A stretch of DNA of 64,000 nt from Pocillopora verrucosa (lineage: Eukaryota > Cnidaria > Anthozoa > Scleractinia > Pocilloporidae), in assembly GCF_036669915.1 (NCBI RefSeq), contig NC_089312.1, positions 26,770,056 to 26,834,055 of the forward strand, in the 5' to 3' direction. Below, piece by piece: positions 11,912 through 59,955 of this stretch (position 1 is its first letter; every line of letters starts with the position of its first letter). The notes under the pieces were generated by a model, which saw only the letters and a list, made by a program, of their open reading frames with translations, was not told where the DNA came from and made no database searches. The position numbers and the translations under genes were made by a program.

Positions 11912-11978
11912 GCCCAATGACCTCTGGGTACTATTGCGCAATTTTTCCATTTTGTGGCGGAGGAAAAAAAAAAAAAAA

Positions 11979-13783: not shown

Positions 13784-13807
13784 AAACAACAAAAAAAAAA
13801 AAAAGAC

Positions 13808-28444: not shown

Positions 28445-31400
28445 ATGTTCAGCTTCTTGGTTTTGCTGCAAATATTCCTCCTGTTCCTGACGGTTTTTAA
28501 AACTTGCGTTCGAGGTGAGTCTGTTGTCACTTTTAAAAGGCATCTTAACGGTAGAACCTATGCGGGGCAGACAAGCTAGTGTAGCACCATACCCAAGAGA
28601 ATATGGTATCATAATTAAATCATAAAGCCAAGATGATAGTAATCGCCGAACACAGCAAGATACGTCTCCTCAAAATATGAGAATCGCATTGAAAACTTTT
28701 TAATAATTTGCTATTGTCAACTGAATTGGTAATGCAAATTACGCATCTACAGATTTTCTAAAGCTGATCTTTCGACTGTGAGCCCTTCGTCAAAGAGAAT
28801 GGAATGAAAACTTGACAGCCAAGCACATATCTTTTGGAGATCTTCATTTGCCATTATTCAGGTTAATTTTCAGCACATTGGAGTTTTGCCTTATAGTATA
28901 TATAAAAAAAAAACCCGGTTAAAATCCGCTTAACAGACGTCCGAACTAGACAGAAAGTCCTAAATGAGAGTAGGGCTTCACTAATAACCAACCATTTGCC
29001 TTTAACCCAAGAGGGGTAATTTCAAAGCTGTGGTGCATCGATTGAATTTCACTTTTTCATGCAACTATGATATGATGAGTTAAACGAATAGGCACTTTAT
29101 TTGTGATACTGAAAATGATGTTTAATTGCCGTCAAGGAGGCATAGAGAAAATCATTACTACTTCTTGACCACTAGCTTAGATCACTTGGTATAAGGGTTA
29201 TCTTTTGAATCAGAAAGGCTAAAGAACGTTGTTAAATGCCAATCCGCTCGTACGCCTCTTCTTTCAGCCCAATCTCCATCTACTTGCCCTTTCAATGTGC
29301 CATTTGATTTTGAAAGTGCAGCGCAGTTAGGATGCTTTCAGACCATTGCCTCGCCATCGACTGGAACGATAAGCCTTTCTAACCATAAAAAGACTGTGAA
29401 ACACGGATCATCATCTCTGAGATGGGTAACCACTGGCGCATCAACGTTGCAGTTAAGATCGTCAACGTTTACCATTCCTAACAGTTGTCTGAGAAATGGG
29501 GGCGTGAAAGTCTGGATCTACAAAGGATCGACGTCAGGACATACATTGCAAGTGGAATTCAAAAATTCTGCTACCACTGTTGGAGGTTTTACAGCAAATG
29601 ACTTTGAAGGATGGCGTGGGATTTGGGTAACGTTTGCAGAATGCAAGACACAAAGTAATAGCTTACAAAGCCCAACTGTTATCGATGAGGTCAACTTTAT
29701 CGGAAACGGAGCTCAAACTGTTTATATAGACAAGCTCGAGTTCAATTGTAATATTAGAAAGCAATCACGGGACAAAATAGTTCCTCCCATCAGTCCATTT
29801 GGTGAGGATTTGTACGACAACTCAGATTTTTGGCAACAGACTTATAGGTGGGGTGCCACGAGAGTCCCTGACCCACCTACTACTATTGAAACACAAAAAA
29901 GAAACCATTTGGATCATATAAAAAGCCGGCTAAAGAACTGGTATTCGGATGAGACTGTAACGTCGCCTAACTACCCTAGTCGCAGCCCGGCTCTAGAAAA
30001 ACGATGGAGTGATCTTGTAAGAAAATTCAAGAGAGCGCATGATGAGTACGATAACTTAAGCTTTGATGCGGTAACTGGAGACATTGTAGGACCTCCTTTG
30101 TTCTGCAGAAATTGTGAGCCTAGAACAAAGTTTGGAGATATCATGATTAAAAATCTTTTACCATTAGCACTAGAATACCATCTAAGCTCTCGTCCGAATG
30201 AGATTACAGATGTTGCCACAGAACAGCAGTCAGAGTTAAACAATGCAGGTAGAAGGAGAACAAGAGCGATAAAGACCATTGCTGGAAAAAACGCCAATAT
30301 GAAGGCATTTTTTGAGTCGAGCCTACCTAGCTCTTCTACGCTGACTGTGGATCAAATAAAGACTGCAATAGAAACCCTTAACAGCCATCGGCTGAGTAGG
30401 ATAAACAAGCTTCTTGATTTTGTTAAAGATCAAGGATTTACAGATGGTAGTGGATTAGGATCCCTGGACCATGAAATGAACCTTGACGGTGCTGGGTTCA
30501 TGCACTCTCTGTTTCTCCTCAGTGAATCGCTGAGTAGAAGCACATTGATGGATTTGATAAATACAGCAAAGTGGTTCACCGACTTTGGAGAGATCTATCA
30601 AACGCCAACTTTTGAATTTCAAGGAACAACTGCTGACCGTATGATCACGCTAATGCTTTATAGACTTATTATTGTGCTTGTGATGCCGACTGATACCGAT
30701 GACGCCATCAAAGAAAAAATCCGTGATATGGATGCCTTAATTCGGTGGCAGAATAATGCGTTATCTATCAATAAAGGTCTTGGAGGACTAATAAAGCCAG
30801 ACTACTTGGTATATCACCATAAATCGTTTTATGGATCAGCCTACGGCCCACCAGCCCTTCAAAATGCAGCTCTAGTTCAATATCTTCTGGGAGGGACTGT
30901 GTTCGCCCTATCTTCAACAAGCGAGAACCATATCAAAGGAGGACTAGAAGCACTGCGACTCATGGCAGTCAAATACTCCACTCCACCCAGTGTAAGCGGA
31001 CGTTACCCAGAATACTCGAACAAGGTTCTCGTGAAGAATCTACCGGCCTATGCTTACATCAGTGTGGCTTATCCTACTACTTTACCGACTTCAGTGCCAA
31101 CAGGTGTAAGTGTAAGCAGTTTGAATAATCCAGAATGGTTCCTGAGATTGTACAATGACCCATCTGTCGAAAGTTTTCTAGAAGATGGAGCACCGAACAA
31201 AAATAAGTACTATTTCAACAGTCTGGGATCTCTGCAAATAATGGAAGCGGTAAGTATCGTTCCCCTTTAAAAATGGAACTTATTGATGTTCATTATTAAT
31301 TGGCGATGACCCTCTCTGCTATAAAACATGATGCCAACAGCACCATCCGTGCTTTGCATACACCATTGTCCGTCACAAAAAATGAAATAAATGAAATAAG

Positions 31401-33231
31401 AAAGGTGGTGAAATTGGAGCTTGGTTGAGAAACAGAGAAAGATGTTTTTCGTCTTCTAACGAGCGTGGTACAGAGAATAAATTCTGAGTCTTCATGAGGA
31501 ATCGAACCTCAGACCCATAGATGCCGCGCTCCGATGCTCTACCACTGAGCCACATACTCTATGGTGAGCAAGGCCCATTACGAAGTTCTAATATCGCACG
31601 CGTCCTGCAAACTGCCAGGATCAACAATGTCGATAGTGTCATATCTTGGAAAATAAAATAAGAAAGATGGTTGATATTGAGCTCGGTGAAGAAATCGAAA
31701 AAAACTAAAAATAGATTGTAAAAAAATGAAATGTAGCGTAACAATCAAATTGAATTTCCATGAAGCATTCATCACTCAAAATGAAACATGCTCAAAATGT
31801 TATTTTAGTCTGCTTTTACCTTAATAGGTGAATTCTACTGCCGTATCACAAGGCAAATCACAAGAGCAGTCCCCTGAAGGTCATTGGTCCAAGAACTTCG
31901 CCGCTCTTTCCATACATCGGCGTAAGAACTGGGCAGTGACTGTAAAAGGTTTCAATAACTTTGTCTGGGATTATGAAACCTCAGCGAACGAAAATGTGTT
32001 TGGATTATTTGCCAGTCATGGTGCTCTCCTTATCGCAAATGACGAAGCAGCCCTTCAGCATCATGATATTGATACCGGATGGGATTGGTCCAAAATTCCC
32101 GGGGCTACTACTATCGCCTTGGGGAATCCAAACATAGATGAATTAAATATAGGTACAACCGGGAGATTCTACAATAAACGCGGATTTGCGGGAGGACTCA
32201 CTTTTGGGGGCACTATGACCTCGAAGAACGGACTGTTTGGCATGAATTTTAAGCAACCGGAATATGATGTCTCGGACTGGCGAGGGAACATCAGATTTCA
32301 ATTCAAAAAGTCAGTTTTCATGTTTGAAAACCTTTTAGTTGGCTTGGGAAGTGATATTTTACTTCAAAGAAATAACATGAAAATTGCTCAAACAACATTA
32401 TTTCAAGACAAGCTTTCTTCCTCGCAGTTTATCAAGGTTGATGGATCACGAAAGGACGCTTCGTCTAATTATAATCACGTCTCATCGACGTCCTCCAGCA
32501 CTTCTCTTACAGATGCAAAAGGAAACTTCTATTACATACCCAGGACCAGTAGTCCAATATTAAAGGTAAATGTCTCAACTCAGACCTCCAAAAAAGATGA
32601 TGGAAGTACTAGCACATCTGGAAAGTATGGTACGGCGTGGTTTGAACATAGTTCGGCTAACCCCAGCTACGAGTATGCTGTCTTGATACCGACTGCAGCT
32701 TATCATACGCAACTGAGTGACCTCCAAACGGCCCAAGACACCGCAGGTAACAAGGTCTACAAAGTCTTGAGGATGGATGATCGCGCACACATTGTTCAAT
32801 TTCTCAAATCACCCAAGTCTTGGTCAGGCCTCAGTCATCCAGTTACAGGTTACGTCATGTTTAGAAGTGCGAGCTCTTTGCCAAGTGATGGGCCAATAAC
32901 AGATGTGAATTCCGGAAAGTGTCTTATAATGGTGGAGGAAACAGCGCAATTCATCCATCTCGCGATCACCTATCCCGACTTAGCTTTGAGTGGTGCAGGT
33001 ACTCTGACTGATTCAAGAGATGTGGGAGAAAGTTTGCTGTACACCTCTGAAAGTACAGAAAAAATTGTATCAGTAACGCTCAGGAATCAAGTACAAACAA
33101 CTGTTGCCGATACCATAGTCCATGGTACACCTGCAAGTTACATACCTAACGTGGATATAAGTGGCCAAACCGTTCACTTTAGAAATTTGAAAAATGGGTT
33201 TAGTGTCGAAGTGAAACTGACGAGGATATAG
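28445..33231 (+). CDS. secreted chondroitinase-ABC-like polysaccharide lyase (PL8), lyase A
   Basis: Exons 28445-28514, 29268-31249 and 31828-33231 join in frame (phases 1 and 0) to about 1151 residues, close to bacterial chondroitinase ABC (about 1000). Exon 1 is a signal peptide, MFSFLVLLQIFLLFLTVF. Residues 35-190 fit the N-terminal jelly-roll lyase domain (FDFESAAQLG and later GWRGIWVTF). Residues about 200-685 fit the alpha-helical catalytic domain, with DGAGFMHSLF. The family's catalytic residues appear present: His540/541 and Tyr549 in YHHKSFYGSAYGP, Arg602 in SGRYP, and Glu734 in YETSANENVFG. The C-terminal beta domains begin with GWDWSKIPGATT (768). PL8 enzymes cleave chondroitin, dermatan or hyaluronan by beta-elimination; substrate here is unproven. 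The bacterial-type body in only two large exons behind a signal exon suggests horizontal origin (inference). AATAAA follows at 33401. Confidence 0.93.
31435..31560 (-). repeat. tRNA-derived SINE in intron 2 of lyase A
   Basis: On the minus strand a polymerase III A box (TGGCTCAGTGGTAGAGCA, 31535-31552) and B box (GGTTCGATTCC, 31498-31508) are about 26 bases apart, but the arms do not fold into a proper tRNA. The element trails into ACTCAGAATTTATTCTC and a CTCGTTAGAAGACGAAAAAC tail. Lyase B carries the same insertion in its intron 2 with the B box deleted, so it predates the lyase duplication. Confidence 0.75.
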
Positions 33232-33400
33232 TACCCCAAGTTCTATTTGGAAATGTCTCAGCCCTCAAATGTTTTTCCAAGGTGCAGGATGGCTTATTAA
33301 TGCCTGTCACTAGACTTTCTCGAGCTGACGGAGTAGCCAAAAATTGGAAATTATTTGCTATTTGTGTAATCAAATTAAATCACTAGATTGAAAATTGAAG

Positions 33401-33406
33401 AATAAA
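33401..33406 (+). terminator. AATAAA polyadenylation signal of lyase A
   Basis: AATAAA lies 170 bases after the lyase A stop. The equivalent segment is deleted downstream of lyase B (about 44690), so lyase B must use a different signal. Confidence 0.55.
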
Positions 33407-34207
33407 CATTACAATGAACGTTCTGTTTTTTTCTGTCACTAAAAAGGCGCATGGAAAAGAGAGAGGGTGAAAGAGAGAGGGAGAGAGAGACTGACTCTAC
33501 ATTTTTTATCTTTATTCTTCAATTTGTTTCTTAACTAATTCTGTACATTTTTCTCGTATGTCTCATTGGGCCCCGGAAAACAACCTATCACGTACTGCGT
33601 TAAAATATGTTGCATGCGGCTATACCGCGAGCAACTGTTACACTTCTTATTTTATCTAAAACCTCCCACGTGCTTTATATGGATGTGCATACGCTGACGA
33701 ACGAACTAATTGCTAAGTGTTTTATTGAAAAACATATTTCCCTCACCAATGGACAGGGTTTGATGTGCCCTTAAAGGGGCTGAGACGAACAAATAGATTT
33801 TAACTTCATCATGAATTTCTTTGCCGTGACCTTGCATGACTAGGTTTCTTAGTTTGCGCCTAGCCTTCATTTTTTTAGGTAGCCACTAAAACTTCTAAAT
33901 AGACAAAACTGGAGTGACTTGCCTCAGCTTTCAGAAAATGACCAGATGAGCTCAGGCAGGCCGCAAACATTGACATTTGAGCATATATTTCTTTAACATC
34001 ACGATATTCTTTTAATCTTCCCAATGAGAGTTGGCTTCAGGTTATCATTCCTCTGTTTCACATAAAAAATCACAAAATATGTCAAATTGTATCTCAGTTT
34101 TCAAAATGACAAACTCGCCCACGGCGAAACAGCTACAGCAGGCTCATACTGAAATTCATTTCATGAAGATGGCTTAAATGATCTCTGCTCTTTTTGCTCC
34201 GAGACGA
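33407..34207. other. intergenic DNA downstream of lyase A
   Basis: No coding sequence. It includes a GA-rich tract at about 33458-33491. From about 33490 it is nearly identical to 44720-45454 in unit 2, much closer than the lyase exons are to each other. Confidence 0.6.
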
Positions 34208-34213
34208 AATATT

Positions 34214-35117
34214 GTGACGATAGGTTTTCGCTCACTAACTGGAAAACTGAATCTTCGCGGATGGAACAATGACAACTGGGGGAAATAACTCTGTAGAGAC
34301 GACTTGGCAGCGAGAACGGAAACTCGTCACGATTTCCTGGTACACGGAGATCTACTTCGAGCGAGCTTTTACGGACGTCAAGGATAAGACAATCTTTGGT
34401 TCCACAGTACTTTTATTCTAGGTCAGGCCAACAAGCGACATGACCTCTAGCATACTCTAGTTTGTAATCATTAAAGCTGTACAAGGTACTTGCTTAAGAA
34501 GTAACTGGTGTGAAGTGCTATTGTTATCCAAATCGCAATATTTGAATAAGGACACAAAGGAGCGGAAAAAGTCTCTTTGAAGTTAAACGAAAACTACTTA
34601 AATATTCCATCTGTTTCCACGACGGAAAGAATCTCAAAATTAAAAAGACGGATGCAATAAACTCTAGGCCATTAACGTAGGAAACTTAGGTGCGAATTTA
34701 CAGCTCTGATATAGAAAACAATACCTATCTTAATTGCAGTAGCGCAGCTCAGGAAAAAGCAATTAAAAGTTTCTGCTTATCTATGCAAGATTGGTTTGGA
34801 AACCATCGCATGAAAAGAAATTAAAGTTACGAGTATAAACTCAGCTGCTAACTACCATGAAAACCAATGTTTCCAGAAAGACCATTAACACTTATATTTA
34901 CCTAAAAAAACCGTGTAATAAATAGCAAAAGTGCCGACAACCAGGTGCATATGATGAAAGCGAGTAACAACAAAAACTATTCAAAAGCTAACGGTGCTTT
35001 TTATGCATTTTTTGCATTATTAAAATGAAAGGACTTGAAATGGTTAAATGTGAAAGTTTACGAATAAATATGTTTCGAATAACACACACGGGAAAAGTCA
35101 GTAAATTTTCCCGTAAC
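34214..35117. mobile_element. 904-bp non-autonomous element with 6-bp target duplication (AATATT)
   Basis: The element starts GTGACGATAGG, ends TTTTCCCGTAAC and is flanked by AATATT at 34208-34213 and 35118-35123. Unit 2 keeps the empty site, a single AATATT at 45455-45460, between the same flanks. Inverted copies occur at 39560-40405 (truncated) and 52527-53344. Near the CGTAAC end is a hairpin, ACGGGAAAA against TTTTCCCGT. No open frame suggests a transposase. The 6-bp footprint does not settle the class; a non-autonomous DNA element or a solo terminal repeat are both possible. Confidence 0.82.
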
Positions 35118-35123
35118 AATATT

Positions 35124-37275
35124 TATAATTCTAATGCAAACCAATTAACTATGTTGTAAGGGAAATTTACAAATCTCCATTAAGGGATATGTAATCGACT
35201 CGGTTTTCAGTGATCAGTCACAGAATTAGTATCAATTAGCGAGATATTGCTTCGTAATAACATGACTTCATATTAGGGGAAACCAAAAATATCATAACTA
35301 GAACGTTTAGGTTGCTAAAAAGACTTTTTGAAAGTTTTTTGAAACCAGACCCTCATCAAAGTTTACTGGGAAGCAAGCAGGCAGCTCTCTCCCATTTCAT
35401 AGATAGCACCCTGCAGCTAAAACATTTGCGCTACTACGACGTCACTTTGATGAAATTTTTGCTGAAGAAAAAAGTTGAAGTTGCGCTTCGTTGTGACACT
35501 TAGGTTGTCTCAAAGATTTCCTGACCAAAATTTGAGGAAAAGTTTTCCAAGATTAAACTCCCTTGTCACAGCTTATGGAAGCAGGCAGGTACTTTTATCC
35601 TTCCAACATGGGAACCTGTAGCGGAAACTTCGTGTCACGATGACATTAATTTGTTCATATTTTTTGTCGAAAAAAGTGAAAGTGGCGCTTCCTGTCATGC
35701 TCTTTGCCGTCGATTTTGAGTTCTTGAACATTTAAGATAGTTTTCAGGAATTGCACCTTTAAACTCATCATCAAGTAGTGAGTAGTTTATTTTTTTTGCG
35801 GTGCGATACTTCGTTGTTGAAAATGTAACCACACCCTATTTATTCTTCATATGACCCTCACCAAATAGCCCTTTATTTTCCGTGACAAGTAAGATTTGTC
35901 ATAAAAAATATCTCAAGTAGCGATCCTCTATCGTGAAGACAATGGGCATTTTTACCTTCTGTGAACTTAAAATAGCGCAATATTCCAACATTTTAGAATC
36001 TATTGCCCTTTGGCTAACCTGTTATGGCTACAGGTCTTGATGAGGTCGGACGTCGAGGCCGCGGGCCTAAATTTAGTAACACCCATTTCCTTAAAACGTA
36101 GCTCATCTTAGATGGTCTTAGATCATTAGTGCCTCGGTAGCTGAGCAATTCCAGACCTCAGAGGGTAAGTTTCTTGAGAAACTTAGTATGATGCTGTGTC
36201 GGCTGGGGATATAACAAGATAATTGGCTTATGTAAATAGCCCTTTATTTTCAAAGCGAGCCCTGGTCCACAACCCTTCATAGGACTATAAGTTTTTATTC
36301 ACATGCAAATTAAACTCATTTTCATACAAGCACCAGGCCTTGTTATGAAAAAGAGGCTAAAGGTAATTTGGAAATAGCCCATTGGCCAAAGTAAACTGGC
36401 CAACGTAAAGGGTTTCTAAAGCAGACGTTTGAAGGGTTAGCCCTCCAGATCTCATTTGCTTGATCTACATACTTATGTCAGCAGCAACACCTTGACAAGT
36501 GAGTAACTACACTAGGGACAAACACTATCACTCTTCAAAACCATTTTTTACTTAATAGGCAACTAGATTTTATCTACTATCCTATGAAATACTTGGGATC
36601 AGGGATCGAAAATGATGGTTTTGGTTGAGTATGTAGTGACGGAAATGTCTATCATGTTCAGAAATGTGATACACTTTGAAACCGTTATGTTTTAGTGTGG
36701 TATCTGGTGGTTATCCTATTTGAAGTCCAATAATAATAATATAATAAATATAATTATGTGTCATTGTAACCGATGGTTCACGGGAAAAAAGGTCTTCAAT
36801 GACTTGAAATCAGTTCTCCTCTGAACAGGCACATAAGTTGCATGTTTTTTGTCTGAAATATCTAAGCGAACACAGCCATAATTCCTCGGTTAGAGACAAA
36901 ACCAACCACAAGATTCCTTTGTTTTAAATCCGATTCTATGAATTTGATATAAACTTAAGTGAGCATAAAGACAAACCACACGTCTCGGATACTTGCTAAT
37001 TTCATGAAGAGTAGTCGATAATGTCGGATGTCACGCTAGAGTGAATTCAACAAAGCTCAACTTTGAAACTTTAGTGCTATCTTGGAGTAATTGTGCCAAA
37101 AAAGAGCTCGCTCCCGTGACATTAGCGGTTTATTTATTTCAATCAACTTAGAGCCAATTCTAAAACATACTCAGGGCTACAATTGGTATAGAATAACAAA
37201 GTTATCTTTAAAACTCTTCTTCGTACTGGCCCACGCTCTTTACCAAGACCTTAAAGATTTGGTTCATGCCTAGCA
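35124..37275. other. intergenic DNA with repeat remnants in unit 1
   Basis: No gene. A repeat word block (CAGGTCTTGATGAGGTCGGA to AGATGGTCTTAGATCATTAG, about 36030-36130) recurs at about 46995, 48440 and 48810. Short open frames such as 37091-37273 recur in unit 2 only because the DNA is duplicated. Confidence 0.6.
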
Positions 37276-37418
37276 TGCGTATATTGAATCATGGATGCAC
37301 GCGGGAAGTTTGGAGAGCAATCAAGAAGCTTAAGTTGCTCTTGGCTGTGCCTTCAGCAACTATAGCGCTTCCCTGGTGCTTTCAAAGTCTCCAGCGTGTA
37401 TTCATAACTCGATCTACG
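37276..37418. repeat. foldback repeat (GCGTATAT..GAGTTATG family), copy in unit 1
   Basis: The left arm GCGTATATTGAATCATGGAT through TTTGGAGAGCA pairs with the right arm TGCTTTCAAAGTCTCCAGCG through ATAACTCGATCTACG around a roughly 60-base loop. Family members are at 50043-50189, 51088-51308 and 56971-57105. Confidence 0.75.
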
Positions 37419-38770
37419 AACAGCTAAAAGCATGATTGTGCTGGAAGAAAGAGTTTTTTAAAATATCACTATTGTGTCGGGTTTCCCAGGTAATCGCGAT
37501 CTACCCGAAAGCTATGACTTTATGATAAGGCAAAGACGACCAAGAAATATATTAGACCAAAAATGTATTTGAAGGATTTTAAGTATGATGATAAAAAGCT
37601 TAAAGAGAAAAACGAATCTTTTGCATGTGCGTGAACACGTCGTTCAACATGCTTGAATCGTTGTTTACTAGAATTCACGGCCAGAAAATTGTGTAGGTTT
37701 GTGATGAAAATTCTGAAATTGTACGGTTTGAAATTAATATCATCTATTTAACAATACTTTTGGGGCATAGCAAGATTTAAAAGCAATACTCACTGTTCGA
37801 AAAACAAAGCGAAAAACGTACGAATTTTTTGTCTTTACGAGACCCGCCAAGTTGATTCGCCTTACTTGAATTTGCGTTTACTAGAAGTTACGACTCGAAA
37901 ATTGCAAGGCTTTGCGCTGAAATTTTTGAAAAACGTACGATTTAAGTCAAAATCTCCTATTGAAAATTACTTTTGGGACATGTCAATACTTAAAATAATA
38001 TTAACCGTTCTAAAGAATTGACCCCTACGTCGCAAAGCCTCACTTAAAGTCAGAGAGATGACTTTCATTCTCATAAGTTTTGTTTAGTATATCTGCTTTT
38101 CATTTTGAGCTCCAAAAGGTCTATCTCAATCAAGGAGGAATGGAAACAAAATTTTGAAAGGTTTGAAACCTCGCGGCTATACTCAACGGGCACTTGCAGC
38201 TATAAGAGATAAGCGTAAGAGATAAGCGTAAGAGTTACTCTCGGCCGCGCCTCGAACAACTTTAGCTTCTTGAGTGCTCTCCAAACTTTCCAAGTGCATC
38301 CATAACTCGATATACGCATAACTAAAAGCACGAACCAGCTCTTTTATAACATAACGGACTCAACCCGTGCTTGAAGAAAGGGTTTTATCACTATTGTGTC
38401 GAGTTTACCACTTAATCGCGATCCGGCCCAAAAACTATGAATAAAAGAAAAGGCAAAAACGACCAAAAAAATATTTTGAGACCAAAATTTTATTTCTAAA
38501 ATGTAAATTTGCTTAAGACGCTAAAAAACAAATGAATTTCTTGCATACTGAAGGCTGCGTAGTAGATTCAGTTTGCTTAAATCTTTGTTTAATAGAACTC
38601 ACCGCCAGTAAATTGCGTAAGTTTGTGATGGAAATCGTGAATTTGTACGATTCTAAAATTAAAATATCCTATTGAATTCTGCTTTAGGGCATATCAACAT
38701 TTTCAATGTTTGAAAAACGAAGCGGAAAACGTACGAATTTCTTGCGTTTACAAGACCCGTGTCACATGTT
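37380..38770. repeat. diverged roughly 480-bp repeat blocks upstream of the lyase B signal exon
   Basis: The block 37380-37855 is homologous to 38270-38760, sharing ATCACTATTGTGTCG, TTGCGTAAGTTTGTGATGGA-type and AAAACGTACGAATTT words. A shorter, more diverged block lies at about 37860-38010. The same arrangement is in unit 2 (50170-51725). In unit 1 an AAGAGATAAGCGT word is duplicated at about 38203-38231 where unit 2 has the left arm of a foldback repeat. Confidence 0.7.
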
Positions 38771-38900
38771 AGAATAATTGTTACTACACTTTGCAATCCT
38801 ATGACACACCAAACGACACTTTCCTCTCGGACACAAGGCCTTAAATGTATCTCTTAAATTCCCTTATACAGATCGACAGGAATCAACGAAAGGAAACGAC

Positions 38901-41900
38901 ATGTTTGGATCATTGGTCCTGTTACCTTCAGCTTTCCTGCTGTTTATGGTTTTCATAACAAGGGAAACAGGTGGGTCCATCGACAATTTTTTTATTAAAT
39001 TGTGACGTGAAGAGTTTCTTGAACAAATACATAGAAAAGCCTCGACTGTGCTTTGTTCTGTTGTAAAGCACGTAGAAAGCAACTGGAGCACGAAAGAAGA
39101 GCAGGGAGAAACACTAATGGTAGTCGAGTGTTTCTCCCTACTTCTTGAGTCAAAGCACTCCATTTGTTTTATAGTAAAGAATCCGTTAAACTCCCCAGGC
39201 ATCACATTCAATTTTCAGAGCAAAGTTTATTTCTAAAGCGAACAACAGTGTCGTTAGCTTGCTCTTTACTCTCATAAAGCACGCAACAACAAGCCAATTA
39301 CAATCCTTGTTAGAATGGTTCAAATAAACTGATTGGTCGCATATCTGCAATAATTCACAAACTGAAATAGTTCGGCAGGTCAAATTTAACACTTTTTCCT
39401 ACAAGTTTTTAGTTTTAATACTGAATCAAAAAGTGAAATGTGCAGTGAGATTCGGTCGAATTGTGGCTCATAAAAAACTCCTCTTTTTTTCATGACAATT
39501 AAAAAAAAAATTGCTCAAATTATTATTCATTTATGAATGAACGACAGCCGAATTCACATGTTACGGGAAAATTTACTGATTTTCCCGTGTGTGTTATTCG
39601 AAACATATTTATTCGTAAACTTTCACATTTAACCATTTCAAGTCCTTTCATTCTAATAAATCAAAAAATGCATAAAAACCACAGTAGCTTTTAGAATAGA
39701 TTTTTGTTGTTACTCGCTTTCATCACATGCACCTGCTTTTCGGCACTTTTGTTATTATTACATGGTTTTTTTAGGTAAATATAAGTGTTAATGGTCTTTC
39801 TGGAAACATTGGTTTTCATGGTAGAAAGCAGTTGAGTTTATACGCGTAAATTTAATTTCTTTTCATGCGATGATCCAAACCAATCTTGCATAGATAAGCA
39901 GAAACCTTTAATTGCTTTTCCGTTTTTATTTCCTGAGCTGCGCTACTGCAATTCAGATAGGTACTGTTTTCTATATCAGAGCTGTAAATTCGCACCTAGG
40001 TTTCCTACTTTAATGGCCTAGAGTTTATTGCATCCGTCTTTTTAATTTTGAGATTCTTTCCGTCGTAGAAACAGATGGAATATTTAAGTAGTTTTCGTTT
40101 AACTTCAAAGAGACTTTTTTCCGCTCCTTTGTGTCCTTATTCAAATATTGCGATTTGGATAACAATAGCACTTCACACCAGTTACTTCTTAAGCAAGTAC
40201 CTTGTACAGCTTTGATGATTACAAACTAAAGTATGCTAGAGGTCATGTCGCTTGTTGGCCTGACCTAGAATAAAAGTACTGTGGAACCAAAGATTGTCTT
40301 ATCCTTGACGTCCGTATAAGCTCGCTCGAAGCAGATCTCCGTGTACCAGGAAATCGTGACGAGTTTCCGTTCTCGCTGCCAAGTCGTCTCTACAGAGTTA
40401 TTTCCCTATGATGCATCGCTTGAATTTCACTTTTTCACGCAACTATGATATGATGAGTGAACCGAATTTGTACTTTACTTGTGATATTAAAAATGATGAT
40501 TAACTGCCGTCAAGGAGGCATAGATAAGATTATTTCTACTAATTGACAACTAGCTTAGATCACTTGGTATTAGGGTTATCTTTTGAATAAAATAGGTGAA
40601 AGAAAGTCGTTCAATGCAAATCCGCACGTACTCTTCTTCTTTCAGCCCAATCTCCACCTAATTGCACTTACAATGTGACATTTGACTTTGAGAGTGCAGC
40701 GCAGTTAGGATGCTTTCAGACTATTGCCTCGCCGTCGAATGGAATGATAAGCCTTTCTAACCACGCAAAGACTGTGAAACACGGATCATCATCTCTGAAA
40801 TGGGAAACCACTGACGCATCAACGTTGCGGTTAACATCGCCAACGTTTACCATTCCTAACAATTGTCTGAAAAAAGGGGGCGTGAAAGTCTGGATCTACA
40901 AAGAATCGACGTCAGGACATACATTGCGAGTGGAATTCAAACATTTTTCTACCACTGTTGGAGGTTTTACAGCAAATGACTTTAAAGGGTGGCGTGGGAT
41001 TTGGGTCAAGTTTGCAGAATGCAAGACAAAAAATAATAGCTTACAACGCCCAACTGTTATCAATGAGGTCAACTTTATCGGAAACGGAGCTCAAACTGTT
41101 TATATAGACAAGCTCGAGTTCACGTGTGATATTAGAGAGCAATCACGGGACAAAATCGTTCCTCCAATTAGTCCATTTGGTGTGAATTGGTACGACAAAG
41201 CAGAATTTTGGCAACAGACGTATAGGTGGAGTAACGCAAACGTCCCTGCACGACCTATAACTATTGACACACAAAAACGAAACCATTTGGATCATATCAA
41301 AAGCCGGTTAAAGAACTGGTATTCGGATGAGACTGTAACATCACCTAATTACCCCAGAGGCAGCCCTCTGGAAAAACGATGGAGGATGCATGTAGAAACA
41401 TTCAAGACAGCACATGATGAGTACGATAACTTAAGCATGGATCAGCAAACTGGAAAAATTGTAGGACCTCCTTTATTTTGCAGGAATTGCAAGCCCGAGC
41501 CTAATACAAAGTTTGGAGATATCATGATTAAAATTCTTTTACCATTAGCACTAGAATACCATCTAAGTTCTCGTCCGAATGAGATTACAGATGTTGCCAC
41601 AGTACAGCAGTCAGAGTTAAACAATGCAGGTAGAAGGAAAACAAGAGCGATAGAGACCATTGCTGGAAAAAACGCTAATATGAAGGAAATTTTTGAGTCG
41701 GAGCTGCATAACTCTTCTGCGCTGACTGTGAATGAAATAACGGCTGCAATAAGAGGCCTTAACGACGAACGTCTGGTTAGGATAAACAATGTTCTTGATT
41801 TCGTTAAAGATCAAGGATTTACAGATGGTAGTGGATTAGGATCCCTGCACCATGAAATGAACCTTGATGGTGCTGGGTTTATGCACTCTCTGTTTCTCCT

Positions 41901-44562
41901 CAGTGAATCGCTGAATAGAAGCACATTGATGGATTTGATAAATACAGCAAAGTGGTTCACCGACTTTGGAGAGATCTATCAAACGCCAACTTTTGAATTT
42001 AAAGGAACGACTGCCGACCGTATGATCACGCTTATGCTCTCTAGACTTATTATTGTGCTTGTGATGCCGACTGATACCGAGGACGCCATCAAAGATAAAA
42101 TCCGTGATATGGATGCCTTAAGTCGGTGGCAGAATAATGCGTTATCTATCAATGAAGGTCTTGGAGGACTAATAAAGCCAGACTACTCGGTGTATCACCA
42201 TAAATCGTTTTATGGATCAGTCTACGGTCCAACAGCCCTTCAAAATGCAGCTCTAGTTCAATATCTTCTGGGAGGGACTGTGTTCGCCTTATCTTCAACA
42301 AGCGAGAACCATATCAAAGGAGGACTAGAAGCACTGCGACTCATGGCAGTCAAATACTCCACTCCACCCAGTGTAAGCGGACGTCACCCAGAATACTCGA
42401 ACAAGGTTCTCGCGAAGAATCTACCGGCCTATGCTTACATCAGTGTGGCTTATCCTACTACTTTACCGACTTCAGTGCCAAAAGGTGTAAGTGTAAGCAG
42501 TTTGAATAATTCAGAATGGTTTCTGAGGTTATACGATGACCCATCTGTCAATAGTTTTCTGGAAATTGGAGCACCAAAACGAAAAAAGTGCTATTTCAAC
42601 AGTCTGGGATCTCTGCAAATAATGGAAGCTGTAAGTATCTTTCCCCTTAAGATGGAACTTATTGATGTTCATTATTAAATACATGATTTACTCAATGACG
42701 ATTATCCTCTTTGTTTTGCAACATGATGCCAGCAACACCATCTGTGCTTTGCATAAATTATTGTCCATCACAAAAATAAAATAAATAAAATAAGAAAGAT
42801 GGTGAAATTGGAGCTTGCTGAAGAAATAGAAAAAGATGGCATTCGTCTTGTAACGAGCGTGATACATGTTGCGCTCCGATGCTCTACCACTGAACCACAT
42901 ACTCTATGGTGAGCAAGACTCATTACGAAGTTCTTATATCAAACTGTTAGGATCAACAATGTCGATAGCGTCATATGTGTGTAAATGAAATAAGGAAGAT
43001 GGTTAATTTTGAGCTCGGCGAAGAAATCGTAAAAAATGAAAATAGAACGTAAAAAAAATTAAATGTAGTATAACAATCAAATTTGAATTTCCATGAAGCA
43101 TTCATCAGTCAAAATATGCTCAAAATGTTATTTTGGTCTGTTTTTACGTTAATAGGTTAATTTCACTGCCGTATCACAAGGCATATCACAAGAGCAGTCC
43201 CCCGAAGGTCATTGGTCCAAGAACTTCGCCGCTCTTTCTATACATCGGCGTAAGGACTGGGCAGTGACTGTGAAAGGTTTCAATAACTTTGTCTGGGACT
43301 TTGAAACTTCAGCGAACGAAAATGTGTTTGGATTATTTGCCAGTCATGGTGCTCTCCTTATCGCAAATAACGAAACAGCCCTTCAGCATCATGATATTGA
43401 TAACGGATGGGATTGGTCCAAAATTCCTGGGGCTACTACTATTGTCTTGGAGAACATAGATGACTTAAATATAGGTAAAACCGGGAGATTCTACAATAAA
43501 CGCGGATTTGCGGGAGGACTCACTTTTAAGGGCACGATGACCTCGAAGAACGGACTGTTTGGCATGAACTTTCGGCAACCGCATTACGATGTATCAGACT
43601 GGCGAGGGAATACCGGATTTAAATTCAAAAAGTCAGTTTTCATGTTTGAAAACCTTTTAGTTGGCTTGGGAAGTGATATTTTCCTTCCGCGAGGAAATAG
43701 ATTGAAAACTACTCAAACAACATTATTTCAAGACAAGCTTTCTCCCTCGCACTTTATCAAGGTTGATGGATCACGAAAGAACGCTTCGTCTAATTATAGT
43801 CACGTCCCATCGCCTTCCTCCAGCACTTCTCTTACAGATGCAAAAGGAAACTTCTATTACATACCCGGATCCAGTAGTCCAATATTAAAGGTTAACGTCT
43901 CAACTCAGATCTCCAAAACACATGATGGAAGTACTATCGCATCTGGAAAGTATGGTACGGCGTGGTTTCAACATAGTACGGTTGACAACGACTACGAGTA
44001 TGCTGTCTTGATACCGACTGCATTGTATCATACGCCACTGAGTGACCTCCAAACGGCCCAAGACACCGCAGGTAACGAGGTCTACAAAGTCTTGAGGAGG
44101 GATGAGCGCGCACACATTGTTCAATTTCTCAAATCACCCAAGTTTTGGTCAGGCCTCAGTCATCCCGTTACAGGTTACGTCATGTTCAGAAGTGAGAACT
44201 CTTTGCCAAATGATGGGCCAATAACAGATGTGAGTTCCGGAAATTGTCTTATAATGGTGGAGGAAACAGCGCAATTCATCCATCTCGCGATCACCTATCC
44301 CGACTTAGCTTTGAGTGGTGGAGGTGTTCTGACAAATTCAAGAGATGTGGGAGAAAGTTTGCTGTACACCTCTGCAAGTGTAGAAAAAAGAGTATCAGTA
44401 ACGCTCAGGAATCAAGTACGAACAACTGTTGCCGATACCCAAGTCCATGGTACACCTGAAAATTACACACCTAACGTGGATATAAGTGGCCAAACCGTTT
44501 ACTTTAGAAATTTGAAAAATGGGTTTAGTGTCGAAGTGAAACTGACGAGGATAATACCCTAA
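38901..44562 (+). CDS. secreted chondroitinase-ABC-like polysaccharide lyase (PL8), lyase B with swapped signal exon
   Basis: Exons 38901-38970, 40646-42630 and 43156-44562 join in frame (phases 1 and 0) to about 1153 residues. Exon 1 encodes MFGSLVLLPSAFLLFMVFIT, unlike that of lyase A but almost identical to the exon at 51865 in front of the GH5-like gene. The body parallels lyase A: FDFESAAQLG, DGAGFMHSLF, His541/542 and Tyr550 in YHHKSFYGSVYGP, Arg603 in SGRHP, Glu735 in FETSANENVFG (Phe instead of Tyr before Glu) and GWDWSKIPGATT. The N-terminal jelly-roll region differs from lyase A at roughly a fifth of residues, the helical core at far fewer. The role is expected to be extracellular glycosaminoglycan-type polysaccharide cleavage. 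That exon 1 belongs to this transcript is inferred from phase, signal-peptide quality and position; RNA data are lacking. Confidence 0.9.
39560..40405. mobile_element. inverted copy of the 0.9-kb element, truncated at the duplication junction
   Basis: Starts GTTACGGGAAAATTTACTG, the reverse complement of the right end at 35117, and runs collinear with 52527-53278. It stops at TTATTTCCC (40405), after which the sequence is lyase intron 1 DNA. The missing terminal part (to CGTCAC) is present in the copy at 52527-53344. Confidence 0.85.
42840..42905 (-). repeat. truncated tRNA-derived SINE in intron 2 of lyase B
   Basis: The A box (TGGTTCAGTGGTAGAGCA, complement of 42880-42897) is kept, but the segment with the B box seen in lyase A is deleted. 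It is at the same intron position as in lyase A. Confidence 0.7.
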
Positions 44563-45454
44563 GTTTTATTTGGAAATATCTCAGCCCTCAAATGTTTTTC
44601 CAAGGTGCAAGATGGCTTATTGATGCCTGTCACTAGACATTCTCGAGCTGATGGAATAGCTAAAAATTGGAAATTATTTGTTATTTGTGTAATTTTCTTC
44701 AAAAAGAGAGAGGGGGAAAAAGAGAGGGAGAGAGAGACTGACTCTACATTTTTTATCTTTATTCTTCAATTTGTTTCTTAACTAATTCTGTACATTTTTC
44801 TCGTATGTCTAATTGGGCCCCGGAAAACAACCTATCACGTACTGCGTTAAAATATGTTGCATGCGGCTATACCGCGAGCAACTGTTACACTTCTTATTTT
44901 AGCTAAAACCTCCCACGTGCTTTATATGGATGTGCACACGCTGACGAACGAACTAATTGTTAAGAGTTTTATTGAAAAACATATTTCCCTCACCAATGGA
45001 CAGGGTTTGATGTGCCCTTAAAGGGGCTGAGACGGACAAATAGATTTTAACTTCATCATGAATTTCTTTGCCGTGACCTTGCATGACTAGGTTTCTTAGT
45101 TTGCGCCTAGCCTTCATTTTTTCCGGTAGCCACTAAAACTTCTAAATAGAAAAAACTGGAGTGACTTGCCTCAGCTTTCAGAAAATGACCAGATGCGCTC
45201 AGGCTGGCCGCAAACATTGACATTTGAGCATATATTTCTTTAATATCACGGTATTCTTTTAATCTTTCCAATGAGAGTTGGCTTCAGGTTATCATTCCTT
45301 TGTTTCACATAAAAAATCACAAAATATGTCAAATTGTATCCCAGTTTTCAAAATGACAAACTCGCCCACGGCCAAACAGCTACGGCAGGCTCATACTGAA
45401 ATTCATTTCATGAAGATGGCTTAAATGATCTCTGCTCTTTTTGCTCCGAGACGA
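44563..45454. other. intergenic DNA downstream of lyase B
   Basis: No gene. The first 150 bases match lyase A 3' flank at about 93 per cent by eye, then a small deletion removes the AATAAA present after lyase A. From about 44720 the match rises to roughly 98-99 per cent. Confidence 0.6.
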
Positions 45455-45460
45455 AATATT
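45455..45460. other. empty insertion site (AATATT) of the 904-bp element
   Basis: ACGAAATATTTATAATTC here corresponds to the two flanks of 34214-35117, with a single AATATT. It supports a 6-bp target-site duplication at the filled site. Confidence 0.85.
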
Positions 45461-46180
45461 TATAATTCTAATGCAAACCAATTAACTATGTTGTTAGGGA
45501 AAATTACAAATCTCCAGTAAGGAATAGCCACAGAATTAGTATCAATTAGCGAGATATTGCCTCGTAATTACATGACTTCATATTAGGGTAAACCAAAAAT
45601 ATTATAACTAGAACGTTTAGGTTGCCACAAAGACTTCCTTCTCAAAAGTGAGAAAAGTTTGTTGAAACCAGACCCTCATCAAAGTTTACTGGGAAGCAAG
45701 CAGGCAGCTCTCTCCCATTTCATAGATAGCACCCTGCAGTTAAAACATTCGTGCTACTACGATATCACTTTGATGAGATTTTTGCTGAAGAAAAAAGTTG
45801 AAGTTGCGCTTCCCTGTCACACTTAGGTTGTTTCAAAGATTTCCTGACCAAAATTTGACGAAAAGTTTTCCAAGATTAAACTCCCTTGTCACAGCTTATA
45901 GAAGCAGGCAGGTACTTTTATCCTTCCAACATGGGAACCTGTAGCGGAAACTTCGTGTCACGATGACATTAATTTGTTCATATTTTTTGTCGAAAAAAGT
46001 GAAAGCGCTTCCTGTCATGCTCTTTGCGGTCGATTTTGAGTTCTTGAACATTTAAGATAGTTTTCAGGAATTGCACCTTTAAACTCATCATCAAGTAGTG
46101 AGTAGTTTATTTTTTTTGCGGTGCGTTACTTCGTTGTTGAAAATGTAACCACACCCTATTTATTATTCATATGACCCTCT

Positions 46181-48290
46181 GGATTCACCCCGCACTCAGA
46201 TGGGCAGGCACTAGGGTATCACTCTGCTCATAAAATTATTCTAGTCTTGGTGATTTTTATATCTCTGCTATGTCGCATCAGGGTTGATTTTCAAATAAAA
46301 AATTCGCTGACAGCCATTTTACGAGTTGTTATTATGACCCCATCAATATAAATATCCATCGGATAAATATAATGTTCGAGGGAAATAAGCCTGTCATTTC
46401 ATTATTAATAGGCCTTGCCTGTAAGTCGTCTTGGTCCCAATAGCGAATAATCCACCGCCGAAAAACATCGATAAGCTGCACTTAGGAATGACTAAAACCT
46501 CCCCTTTATTTCAAAAACAGGGAAAGGTAGACAAATGCTTTGTTTGAGTAATGAGCTTCTTCAATGCCTGTTATCAAGTTGTGAGCAGCTTCCATGTCTT
46601 AATCAGAGCGATATTTTTTAACTGAAAATGCCGTCACATTATGTTGATTATTCAATTTCCATTCAGGTTTCACTTTGCGCTCAGAAGGGCAGACACCAGG
46701 GTATTACACCTTTCAAAGGACAAGGCTGTGACAAGTCGCTACAGGAATGACTTTCCATTCTCTTTGTGGCCGATCTTTTCAATTTCCCTGTTTTGCCGAA
46801 AAACGTCAATCTGTCCGGCAGGAAAGACTTTCATTTCATTCCCTGAACAATCAGCACCAAAGTTTTATGGGCTGATAATCTGGAAAAAAAAAGTAACATA
46901 TAAAACCCTAGAGAATTTTCCACATGTGAACTTAACAGACCATAAGATTCGAAGTCTTTCGAGTGCGTTGGCCTCAGGTCAACCTGTTATGGCCTGGGGA
47001 CCTTGATGAGGTAAGACGTGGGCCGCAGGCCTGATTTTAGCAACACCCACTACTCTAAAATGTAGTCCCCACCTCAGATGGTCTTAGATAATTAGTGCCT
47101 CGCTGTAACTGAACTGCTCCAGATCTCAATTGCCTGATCTTCAAAAAAATAAGTCAGCACCGTGACAAGTAAGTAACTTCACGATGAAAAACTCTTTCTC
47201 TCTTCAAACTCATGATATTCTGCGTATATTATTTTCTTTTATCGCTTTACTGACAGATCTCTCAAGATTAGATTTAATGTTTACCTTTCGCGGCTTTCCA
47301 GCTTCATGGTGGATGATCGCGCTGAAATTCTAGAACGTTTTGCGATTGGGAATCCTAGCAGGAATGAAAAAGCTAAATAATCAATTTTTACAATATTTTC
47401 TAAAGTTCTGCCTACACTACTGCAAATTCAGCTTGAAAATGAGTATTCACGCGTTAACACGGTCTTCACTTCCCGATCGTGCTTTGTTCTGAGAACGACT
47501 TAGAATGCACAATAATTTCTCAAGCATTAAGAAACTCTGTTTACTTTAACTGGGCGCTGGGTTATTTTTCAATTCAAAAATATGGTCAAAATTCACTTCT
47601 GAGTTGTTGTTAGGACCAAAAATTCAATCTTCCCTCCGTCGGATAAATATATCGCTCAATGGCTATAAGCCGACTCACATTTAATTATTTAGATGCCTTG
47701 TATATACATCTTGGTCCCAAAATTGAATGCATGAACGTCGAAAACACAAAATCGATGAGCTGCTCTCAGGCATGATTAGAACCTTCCCTTTTTGCAAAAG
47801 CTGGGAAAGGAGAGACAAACGCTGTGCTTCGGTAATGGCTGCTTAAATGTCGATTTCTGCGCAATAAATGGTGCTGTTCTGAAAAAAAACAGAAAAACGT
47901 GTATTTTAATTGGAGAAGAAATCGTCATCACTTGGAATCGCTCCTGGGACCTTTCACTTGAGCGGGGTTGTACTGTCCATTGCCAAAGTATGTAATATAT
48001 TTCTATGTGATAACATGTTTCCGCTAGTAGACTGATATTGATAAAACATTTTCTTCCTTATACGGGTAGATTTTAAAATATTAAGTCCTTTCAGTGGCCT
48101 CGAAGTTTCAACCCTCCGGGATAGTTCAATTTACGAGCCTAGGGGTTCGCTGCCACTTCGATTTGCTCTCTAAGTGGACGATTTTGGAATTATTTCGGAC
48201 TGAGTTAAGACTGAATTAAACGTTTTCGGTAACGGGGTTTTGGGTTAATTTCTGCGTTGACCAAAAATCACATTTGTCTTATAAATTGGA
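46181..48290. repeat. 2.1-kb block found only in unit 2, with internal diverged duplication
   Basis: After CATATGACCCTC unit 1 and unit 2 diverge, and homology resumes at TGTGACAAGTAAGATTTGTC (48293). Inside the block, 46290-46560 resembles 47560-47850 (GAGTTGTTRTTA, CGGATAAATATA, TCTTGGTCCCAA, GGGAAAGGWGAGACAAA-type words). A 121-residue frame at 46641-47006 is not accepted as a gene: it has no start context or domain and overlaps this repeat DNA. Confidence 0.65.
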
Positions 48291-48292
48291 TC

Positions 48293-49032
48293 TGTGACAA
48301 GTAAGATTTGTCACCAAAAATTCTCAAGTAGCGATCCTCTATTGTGAAAACAATGGACATTTTTGCCTTCTGTGAACTTAAAATAGAATAAGATCCCAAC
48401 ATTTTAGAATCTATTGCCCTTTGGCCAACCTGTTATGGCCACAGGTCTTGATGAGGTCGGACGCCGGGGCCGCGGGCCTTAATTTAGTAACACCCATTTC
48501 CTTAAAACGTAGCTCATCTTAGATGGTCTTAGATCATTAGTGCCTCGGTGGCTGAGAAATTCCAGATCTCAGGGGGTAAGTTTCTTAAGAATCATATTTT
48601 GATGCTGTGTCGGTTGGGAGTATAACAAGATAATAAGCTTATGTAAATAGCCCTTTATTTTCTGTGACAAGTAAGATTTGTCACCAAAATTTCTCAAGTA
48701 GCGATCCTCTATCGTGAAAACAATGGACATTTTTACCTTCTGTGAACTTAAAATAGCGCAATATTCCAACATTTTAGAATCTATTGCCCTTTGGCTAACC
48801 TGTTATGGCTACAGGTCTTGATGAGGTCGGACGTCGAGGCCGCGGGCCTAAATTTAGTAACACCCATTTCCTTAAAACGTAGCTCATCTTAGATGGTCTT
48901 AGATCATTAGTGCCTCGGTAGCTGAGCAATTCCAGACCTCAGAGGGTAAGTTTCTTGAGAAACTTAGTATGATGCTGTGTCGGCTGGGGGTATAACAAGA
49001 TAATTAGCTTATGTAAATAGCCCTTTATTTTC
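48293..49032. repeat. 370-bp tandem duplication in unit 2
   Basis: TGTGACAAGTAAGATTTGTC and the following 350 bases occur at 48293 and 48663, each ending near TAAATAGCCCTTTATTTTC. Unit 1 has the segment once (from 35882), so one copy arose after, or was lost since, the large duplication. Confidence 0.85.
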
Positions 49033-50042
49033 AAAGCGAGTCTTGGTCCACAACCCTTCATAGGATTATAAGTTTTCATTCACATGCAAATTTCATTTTC
49101 ATACAAGCACCAGGCCTTGTTATGAAAAAGAGGCTAAAGGTAATTCGGAAATAGCCCATTGGCCAAAGTAAACTGGCCAACGTAAAGGGTTTCTAAAGCA
49201 GACGTTTGAAGGGTTAGCCCTCCAGATCTCATTTGCTTGATCTACATACTTATGTCAGCAGCAACACCTTGACAAGTAAGTAACTACACTAGGGACAAAC
49301 ACTATCACTCTTCAAAACCATTTTTTACTTAATAGGCAACTAGATTTTATCTACTATCCTATGAAATACTTGGGATCAGGGATCGAAAATGATGGTTTTG
49401 GTTGAGTATGTAGTGACGGAAATGTCTATCATGTTCAGAAATGTGATACACTTTGAAACCGTTATGTTTTAGTGAGGTATCTGGTGGTTATCCTATTTCA
49501 AGTCCAATAATAATAATATAATAAATATAATTATGTGTCATTGTAACCGATGTTTCACGGGAAAAAAGGTCTTCAATGACTTGAAATCAGTTCTCCTCTG
49601 AACAGGCACATAAGTTGCATGTTTTTTGTCTGAAATATCTAAGCGAACACAGCCATAATTCCTCGGTTAGAGACAAAACCAACCACAAGATTCCTTTGTT
49701 TTAAAATCCGATTCTATGAATTTGATATAAACTTAAGTGTGCATAAAAACAAACCACACGTCTCGGATACTTGCTAATTTCATGAAGAATAGTCGATAAT
49801 GGCGGATGTCACGCTAGAGTTAATTCAACAAAGCTCAACTTTGAAACTTTAGTGCTATCTTGGAGTAATTGTGCCAAAAAAGAGCTCGCTCCCGTGACAT
49901 TAGCGGTTTATTTATTTCAATCAACTTAGAACCAATTCTAAAACATACTCAGGGCTACAATTGGTATAGAATAACAAAGTTATCTTTAAAACTCTTCTTT
50001 GTACTGGCCCACGCTCTTTACCAAGACCTTGGATCGTGCTTA

Positions 50043-50189
50043 GCGTGCGTATATTAAATCATGGATGCACGCGGGAAGTTTGGAGAGCAATCAAGAAGCT
50101 TTAGTTGCTCTCGGCTGTGCCTTCAGCAACTATAGCGCTTCCCTGGTGCTTTCAAAGTCTCCAGCGTGTATTCATAACTCGATCTACGA
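50043..50189. repeat. foldback repeat, unit 2 counterpart of 37276-37418
   Basis: Near-identical to the unit 1 copy, with the same arms and loop. Confidence 0.75.
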
Positions 50190-51087
50190 ACAGCTAAAAG
50201 CATGACTTGTGCTGGAAGAAAGAGTTTTTTAAAATATCACTATTGTGTCGGGTTTCCCAGGTAATCGCAATCTACCCGAAAGCTATGACTTTATGATAAG
50301 GCAAAGACGACCAAGAAATATATTAGACTAAAAATGTATTTGAAGGATTTTAAGTATGATGATAAAAAGTTTAAAGAGAAAAACGAATCTTTTGCATGTG
50401 CGTGAACACGTCGTAGATTCAACATGCTTGAATCGTTGTTTACTAGAATTCACGGCCAGAAAATTGTGTAGGTTTGTGATGAAAATTCTGAAATTGTACG
50501 GTTTGAAATTAATATCATCTATTTAACAATACTTTTGGGGCATAGCAAGATTTAAAAGCAATACTCACTGTTCGAAAAACAAAGCGAAAAACGTACGAAT
50601 TTTTTGTCTTTACGAGACCCGCCAAGTTGATTCGCCTTACTTGAATTTGCGTTTACTAGAAGTTACGACTCGAAAATTGCAAGGCTTTGCGCTGAAATTT
50701 TTGAAAAACGTACGATTTAAGTCAAAATATCCTATTGAAAATTACTTTTGGGACATGTCAATACTTAAAATAATATTTACCGTTCTAAAGAATTGACCCC
50801 TACGTCGCAAAGCCTCACTTAAAGTCAGAGAGATGACTTTCATTCTCATAAGTTTTGTTTAGTATATCTGCTTTTCATTTTGAGCTCCAAAAGGTCTATC
50901 TTAATCAAGGAGGAATGGAAACAAAATTTTGAAAGGTTTGAAACCTCGCGGCTATACTCAACGGGCACTTGCAGCTAAAATAAGGTGAAACTGCACACGT
51001 CGTGTTATGGATGCATGGCAGTGCGTACATAAGGATTTTTTTACCATAGTAGCTCCTTAGGAATTACGTAGGACTTGCCCCCTTTAT

Positions 51088-51308
51088 ATGTTATAAGAAA
51101 ATTGGGGAGTTGGCTCATTCTTAGCGTGCGTATATCGAGTTATGAATGTACGCGGGAAGTTTGGAAAGCACGAGATAAGCGTAAGAGTTACTCTCGGCCG
51201 CGCCTCGAGCAACTTTAGCTTCTTGAGTGCTCTCTAAATTTTCCAAGTGCATCCATAACTCGATATATGCATAACTAAAAGCACGAACCAGCTCTTTTAT
51301 AACATAAC
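51088..51308. repeat. full-length foldback repeat with TATGTTATAA ends
   Basis: The left arm from TATGTTATAAGAAAATTGG through CGTATATCGAGTTATGAATG pairs with a right arm ending CATAACTCGATATATGC through TTATAACATA. Unit 1 retains only the right arm (about 38286-38350), so the left part was deleted there. This copy shows the family's true ends best. Confidence 0.75.
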
Positions 51309-51864
51309 GGACTCAACCCGTGCTTGAAGAAAGGGTTTTATCACTATTGTGTCGAGTTTACCACTTAATCGCGATCCGGCCCAAAAACTATGAATAAAAG
51401 AAAAGGCAAAAACGACCCAAAAAATATATTGAGACCAAAATTTTATTTCTAAAATGTAAATTTGCTTAAGACGCTAAAAAACAAATGAATTTCTTGCATA
51501 CTGAAGACTGCGTAGTAGATTCAGTTTGCTTAAATCTTTGTTTAATAGAACTCACCGCCAGTAAATTGCGTAAGTTTGTGATGGAAATCGTGAATTTGTA
51601 CGATTCTAAAATTAAAATATCCTATTGAATTCTGCTTTAGGGCATATCAACATTTTAAAATAATATTCAATGTTTGAAAAACGAAGCGAAAAACGTACGA
51701 ATTTCTTGCGTTTACAAGACCCGTGTCACATGTTAGAATAACTGTTACTACACTTTGCAATCCTATGACACACCAAACGACACTTTCCTCTCGGACGCAA
51801 GGCCTTAAATGTATCTCTTAAATTCCCTTATACAGATCGACAGGAATCAACGAAAGGAAACGAC

Positions 51865-59838: not shown

Positions 59839-59955
59839 CAGTGTAGACAAATGAAGGCAGAATATTTACTCCTAACTACCGAGCCCAAGGGTCGCACTCA
59901 AGAATTTTGGCCCGATTTTGGCCCGTAAAAAAACAGTCCATTCAATTTTTTGCAG

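Follow-up and report, generated by a model that had tools for sequence, protein, structure and literature searches.

A coral PL8 lyase gene carrying the signal-peptide exon of a neighbouring GH5-like gene at a tandem-duplication-type seam

Passages of PMC5460883 describe chimeric genes in which the 5' end of one gene and the 3' end of its neighbour were united at the seam of a tandem duplication. Lyase B, a predicted lyase gene of the coral Pocillopora verrucosa, is put together in the same manner. In passages of PMC10236652 tandem gene duplication is reported as pervasive in Pocillopora and Porites, and 'chimeric genes' and 'gene fusions' are treated there as prediction errors to avoid and not as real products, unlike what we describe here for lyase B. 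Within the window, by which we mean the whole 64,000-nucleotide stretch of DNA that was analysed, lyase B is a real chimeric gene structure of the assembly; the direction of the leader transfer that made it is supported, and its history took at least two steps.

Lyase A, lyase B and the GH5-like gene all lie on the + strand. Lyase A begins with leader exon L1 at 28445-28514 (70 nt: an ATG, 23 codons and 1 nt, followed by a GT phase-1 donor); its intron 1 spans 28515-29267 and is homologous to lyase B intron 1 from 29028 on, and exon 2 (29268-31249) and exon 3 (31828-33231) encode the PL8 domains. Lyase B has the same three-exon layout, with a leader exon at 38901-38970 (70 nt, GT donor) that is a copy of the GH5 leader L2, and PL8-encoding exons 2 and 3 at 40646-42630 and 43156-44562. 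The GH5-like gene has two exons, namely leader exon L2 at 51865-51934 (70 nt, GT donor) and a body exon at 54350-55371 (Pfam Cellulase, PF00150), separated by an intron of 2415 nt. AG precedes 29268, 40646 and 54350 as acceptor, and all three spliced frames are open with a single terminal stop, giving proteins of 1151 (lyase A), 1153 (lyase B) and 363 aa (GH5). A phase-1 intron follows each of the three leaders, and the codon at the join encodes Ala in both lyases. Thus, the exon coordinates and splice sites of the initial annotation were right, as was its view that phase-1 introns keep a swapped exon in frame.

Both lyases contain the N-terminal, catalytic and super-sandwich domains of PL8 (Lyase_N, Lyase_catalyt and Lyase_8; PF09092, PF09093 and PF02278) above the curated Pfam cut-offs, and PF00150 was found in the GH5-like protein with E = 9.7e-16 and 58.5 bits against a cut-off of 23.5. 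The sole solved relative of the lyases at E <= 0.001 was the chondroitinase 2q1f (E = 7e-23), a member of the PL8 family with the same three domains, whose HH...Y and SGRHP stretches align with the coral lyase; in contrast to that family, the coral gene is an animal copy with introns, and its role as a lyase is predicted. Lyase B matches the Stylophora pistillata protein P0002 at 79% over its full length, and the GH5-like protein matches P. meandrina P0095 at 95% across 89% of its length.

The leader of lyase B differs from that of the GH5-like gene at only 2 of 70 nt, one change being silent and the other replacing G by R. With 68/70 positions shared with the GH5 leader and only a distant likeness to that of lyase A, it was rejected as a diverged copy of L1, and the near-identity that had first drawn attention to this exon was borne out. 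BLAST self-comparison placed the leader within a block, 38219-39794, that is 97.7% identical to 51172-52761 and extends 682 bases upstream of the exon, to 38219, which indicates that the upstream region travelled along with the leader. Further downstream, 39887-40406 is 98.1% identical to 52759-53278, and 40406-44693 is 89.0% identical to 29028-33370; for these repeats of the window chance is ruled out (E = 0). No further strong match to L1-, L2- or MSRFL-type leaders was detected in the window beyond the three leaders.

These alignments meet at a seam at 40405/40406 (+ strand), where GH5-intron DNA, homologous up to 53278, gives way to lyase intron 1 DNA, homologous from 29028. The seam can be placed to within about 1 nt, and base by base the two sides share a single base, at 40406; with so short a shared stretch, homologous recombination at the seam was rejected. 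The identity to the GH5 intron holds right up to this point, with 217 of the final 220 bases identical. The self-comparison thus resolves into two head-to-tail units, 29028-40405 and 40406-53278, the end of a unit being joined to the start of a unit at the seam, as in a tandem duplication. Furthermore, the downstream parent supplied the 5' end of the fusion and the upstream parent its 3' end, and both parents are intact. A search with the exact seam pattern returned 0 matches in viral, bacterial and archaeal DNA collections. Structure, seam and frame are direct observations, and they uphold both the fused gene structure proposed for lyase B and the junction as initially placed, including its GH5 side at 53278; only the lyase side shifts, from 29030 to 29028 by BLAST.

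The GH5-side breakpoint falls within mobile-element-like sequence. The GH5 intron contains an element-like sequence at 52527-53344 (+), and an inverted relative of about 0.9 kb lies at 34214-35117 (+) in the repeat copy upstream of lyase B only. This insert is flanked on both sides by a 6-bp target-site duplication, AATATT, and the corresponding position downstream, at 45455-45460, holds a single AATATT as an empty site. The two element copies share their ends, in that identity starts and stops at the same points; the match between the two ends is limited to GTGACG / GTTACG, and the copy in the GH5 intron has no exact target duplication. A fold-back copy of the GH5 intron was considered as the source of 34214-35117; as this sequence extends past the seam point and has defined ends and a duplicated target, a MITE-like mobile element fits better. 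Upstream of lyase B, the element copy is cut off by the seam some 66 bp short of one end. Elsewhere, in the left part of the window, a repeat group at 9688-13794 is 86-98% identical, and a direct repeat pairs 598-4244 with 16403-21573 at 82-87% identity.

A single undisturbed duplication would be expected to leave equal divergence along both copies, and this was not what we found. The leader-bearing repeat exists as two copies on the + strand: S1 at 33450-40405, made up of intergenic DNA, the GH5-type upstream region, the leader and part of the GH5 intron, and S2 at 44697-53278, which includes a stretch (46180-48290) that is absent from S1 and is followed by a 0.37-kb tandem copy. In 20 of 25 intervals of ~250 alignment columns each, the identity of S1 to its counterpart within 44697-53278 was 96.8-100%, and over five aligned segments the copies differed by 130 substitutions in 5895 positions (2.2%). 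Lyases A and B, in comparison, differ at 34/240 positions of intron 1, 67/508 of intron 2, 170/1979 of exon 2 and 101/1398 of exon 3, so that the lyase introns (101/748, 13.5%) are far more diverged than the S repeats (Fisher p = 1e-37, odds ratio 6.9). The step between these levels, which we observe directly, is sharp. It lies at a second discontinuity at 44693-44697 (+; against 33370-33450), where lyase-type divergence ends and the 98% repeat starts, and it coincides with 76 bp (33372-33447) that follow lyase A but are missing behind lyase B; lyase B is therefore flanked by discontinuities at both ends. The missing 76 bp include the AATAAA that lies 170 nt past the lyase A stop. In 44563-46300, past the lyase B stop, ATTAAA first occurs at 45875 and AATAAA not before 46294.

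The gap between 13.5% and 2.2% calls for two events at the least, or for later homogenisation. Thus, of the tandem-duplication origin proposed in the initial annotation, the seam of tandem-duplication type stands and the single event does not: either the lyase bodies would be older paralogues than the leader-bearing repeats, or the repeats would have been homogenised later. According to the second course, lyase B and the fusion arose together in a single old tandem duplication, and S1 and S2 were later evened out by gene conversion or unequal crossing-over. This takes the fewest rearrangements and agrees with the fact that the homology between the lyases and that between S1 and S2 both stop exactly at the seam. 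It also suits the uneven divergence of the S repeats, with 53/1470 differences near the lyase and 77/4425 elsewhere (p = 6e-5). However, conversion tracts should fade towards their ends, and the identity is still 217/220 directly before the seam; the homogenised stretch would need to span several kb; and gene conversion is reported as very rare in corals in passages of PMC10236652, which leans to a recent duplication over homogenisation. We regard homogenisation as a serious possibility but as the less probable course.

Another reading of the low divergence of S1 and S2, merely 2.2%, is that they are alleles of one region misjoined in series during assembly, and allelic duplications were indeed reported for the first P. 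cf. effusa assembly, at a heterozygosity of 1.14% (passages of PMC10236652). The divergence of S1 and S2 is, however, about twice that allelic value, bearing in mind that other species may differ from P. cf. effusa, and the lyase bodies are much more diverged still (dS 0.11). In addition, the window contains no N, and the two sides of the seam are non-homologous DNA sharing a single base, without the overlap expected of a false join. Judged from the sequence, an assembly artefact is therefore very improbable, although a margin of only about twofold over the allelic value counts somewhat against the fusion.

Relatives of the three genes bear on the direction of transfer. An L1-type leader directly precedes the lyase body in two of the three closest Stylophora lyases: P0002 has MFSFWVLLQIVPLFLTVFKTCIQ after five residues and P0004 has MFGTLILLQIPPLFLTVFITCVR after 40 residues. 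These leaders match that of lyase A at 18/23 and 17/23 positions and L2 at 9/23 and 11/23, respectively. In the third, P0003, neither leader type was seen, the L1 type thus being absent, and its gene model may start elsewhere. On the GH5 side, P0097 begins with MFRSLVLLSSAFLPFMVFITGET, 20/23 identical to L2, followed by a GH5 body; among the best 120 of 210 GH5 relatives it was the only one with a leader close to L2. P0097 is 76% identical to the GH5 protein of the window and so probably stems from another species, and its source contig, only 1806 nt long, could not hold an intron like the 2415-nt one of the window's GH5 gene and probably represents cDNA. The leaders of P0002, P0004 and P0097 are plain observations, and they argue that L1 is probably the earlier leader for lyases, as L2 is for the window's GH5 gene. 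The proposal that a lyase took over a GH5 leader is thus supported by these outgroups, whereas its premise, that lyase A and the GH5 gene each have one leader, was shaken: the P. meandrina model P0095 joins a different leader, MSRFLVLLPSLFPLFMVSVV, to a body nearly the same as that of the window's GH5 gene. MSRFL-type leaders occur in P0095 and in the Stylophora GH5 protein P0128. The P0095 model also bears a receptor domain (PF02932), so it may be a mis-joined prediction; leaders may otherwise have been swapped among GH5 paralogues as well.

A tree of lyases A and B with 8 of 91 lyase relatives recovered the two as sisters (support 1.00) beside the three Stylophora genes, the branch of lyase B (0.124) being about twice as long as that of lyase A (0.066). 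A-type and B-type bodies fall into separate clusters of public sequences, P0012 with 226 members and P0007 with 160. The B-type relative P0010 differs from lyase B at 39/652 residues, which suggests that the B body is an established gene with variation of its own. In some B-type relatives, stretches of A-type residues appear towards the end of exon 2; five of the relatives in this comparison do not cover exon 1 and the first diagnostic sites. Along the gene, dS between the two lyases ranges from 0.03 to 0.31 per 75 codons, and together with these residues this makes exchange between the lyase copies possible. Such residues would fit the homogenisation of repeats discussed above; they may also be old states, as Stylophora often has the same ones.

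We also considered whether lyase B might be a pseudogene or start elsewhere, leaving the exon at 38901-38970 unused. A leader-focused protein search (6 candidates) found no spliced L2-lyase product; its single match, P0213, has the end of intron 1 read as coding and lacks the leader. Together with the lack of AATAAA in the 1.7 kb past the lyase B stop, where ATTAAA occurs at 45875 and where lyase A has its AATAAA at 170 nt, this speaks for an unused exon. However, the spliced frame of 1153 codons is open, with a GT donor and an AG acceptor, the body of lyase B is under some constraint (dN/dS ~0.73 against lyase A, 0.080/0.109), and B-type exon 2 persists across the cluster of 160 public sequences. 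We consider an unused exon unlikely.

The two leaders themselves may share an older history. L1 and L2 are both 70 nt long, end in phase 1 and are identical at 39/70 positions. Their coding match of 38/69 was reached by 1 in 20,000 codon shuffles (mean 23.8), and the encoded peptides are identical at 10/23 residues against a shuffle mean of 3.9 (p = 0.00075). When the 5' UTR and donor were included, the local score was 42, compared to 20.4 +/- 3.3 for shuffled sequences (0/1000 shuffles); the upstream part alone was matched by 18/1000 shuffles, and no similarity was detected at the intron start (550/1000) or further upstream (633/1000). Homology of L1 and L2 is thus probable, not proven, since shuffles do not model the constraint on signal peptides. 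We then ranked GH5 leaders by similarity to five hand-chosen lyase leaders (L1 and those of P0002, P0004, P0005 and P0006), using the window's L2 and 78 distinct leaders drawn by a rough motif rule from the best 120 of 210 GH5 proteins. L2 came first of these 79 (34.4) and P0097 second (26.8), while the other 77 had a mean of 5.9 (sd 5.0) and a maximum of 23.6. Next in rank were two MSRFL-type leaders, P0102 (23.6) and P0095 (18.8), so L2 may be no more than a GH5 leader with a likeness to those of lyases.

The weak but significant similarity of L1 and L2 hints at an earlier exchange. PL8 and GH5 genes may also have been linked for long: P0004 (PL8) and P0128 (GH5) of Stylophora have source contigs of equal recorded size (1000252), as do P0009 (ACROYT_G007551) and P0116 (ACROYT_G007545) of Oculina (46518285) and P0051 and P0100 (158018), equal sizes suggesting placement on the same contig. 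On this basis, the first exon, with 5' UTR, signal peptide and phase-1 donor, could be a cassette that moved more than once between clustered coral PL8 and GH5-like genes, L2 being an old lyase-type copy handed back to a lyase. We offer this reading tentatively and rather doubt it; if it were true, a shared first exon would place enzymes with different folds under common control.

The GH5-like group has a feature of its own. Of the two catalytic glutamate positions of GH5, the second presumably being the nucleophile, the first is Glu in 120/120 of the best 120 of 210 GH5 relatives (P0093-P0212). At the presumed second site the same relatives have Ala in 113 cases, Glu in 5 and a gap in 2, and two solved GH5 relatives aligned there also lack Glu, perhaps as mutants. 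The group may be a conserved branch of GH5 whose mechanism is altered or lost. More GH5-like copies or fragments occur on both strands of the window (24251-25231, 57601-58017, 59216-59884, 59936-60974 and 62281-63367), several of which look broken, judged by their frames.

Taken together, we consider it likely that lyase B is a duplication-made fusion that uses L2, a judgement that leaves the order of events aside. The ancestral order would have been L1, lyase body, spacer, L2 and GH5 body. A duplication reaching from lyase intron 1 to the GH5 intron would have set another lyase body downstream of another L2, leaving both parent genes whole and the fusion at the seam. L2 would have replaced L1 in frame owing to the phase-1 introns. 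Lyase B would then consist of the GH5 upstream region, 5' UTR, signal-peptide exon and the first part of the GH5 intron, joined to a paralogue of lyase A; its expression is predicted to follow GH5-type control and its secretion to rely on the GH5 signal. As to timing, the divergence step shows that lyase bodies A and B had separated long before the S1 and S2 repeats reached their ~98% likeness. We favour an order in which the lyase was duplicated long ago and the leader-bearing segment, comprising spacer and leader, only recently, the recent step either entailing the loss of an intermediate copy or forming a compound event.

Lyase B thus offers a case in which duplication within a gene cluster seems to have equipped a coral gene with a new leader for secretion and, probably, with a new promoter, and its divergence step allows a test of whether the lyase duplication or the leader swap came first. 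If leaders of clustered enzymes swap repeatedly, the swapping of signal exons would be a route to co-regulation. Some of the fused models in coral tandem arrays that passages of PMC10236652 class as errors may likewise be real. In our literature search on coral and cnidarian chondroitin lyases and on signal-peptide-exon shuffling, no title concerned this locus. The chimeras described in passages of PMC5460883 are expected to change in regulation, and the same is predicted for lyase B. In contrast to them, lyase B is a diverged coral gene known from its sequence; its fused part and the remainder differ in divergence by a step, and a breakpoint lies in element-like sequence. The mechanism is nonetheless of the kind described in those passages, and lyase B is a well-preserved example of a known gene-making route.
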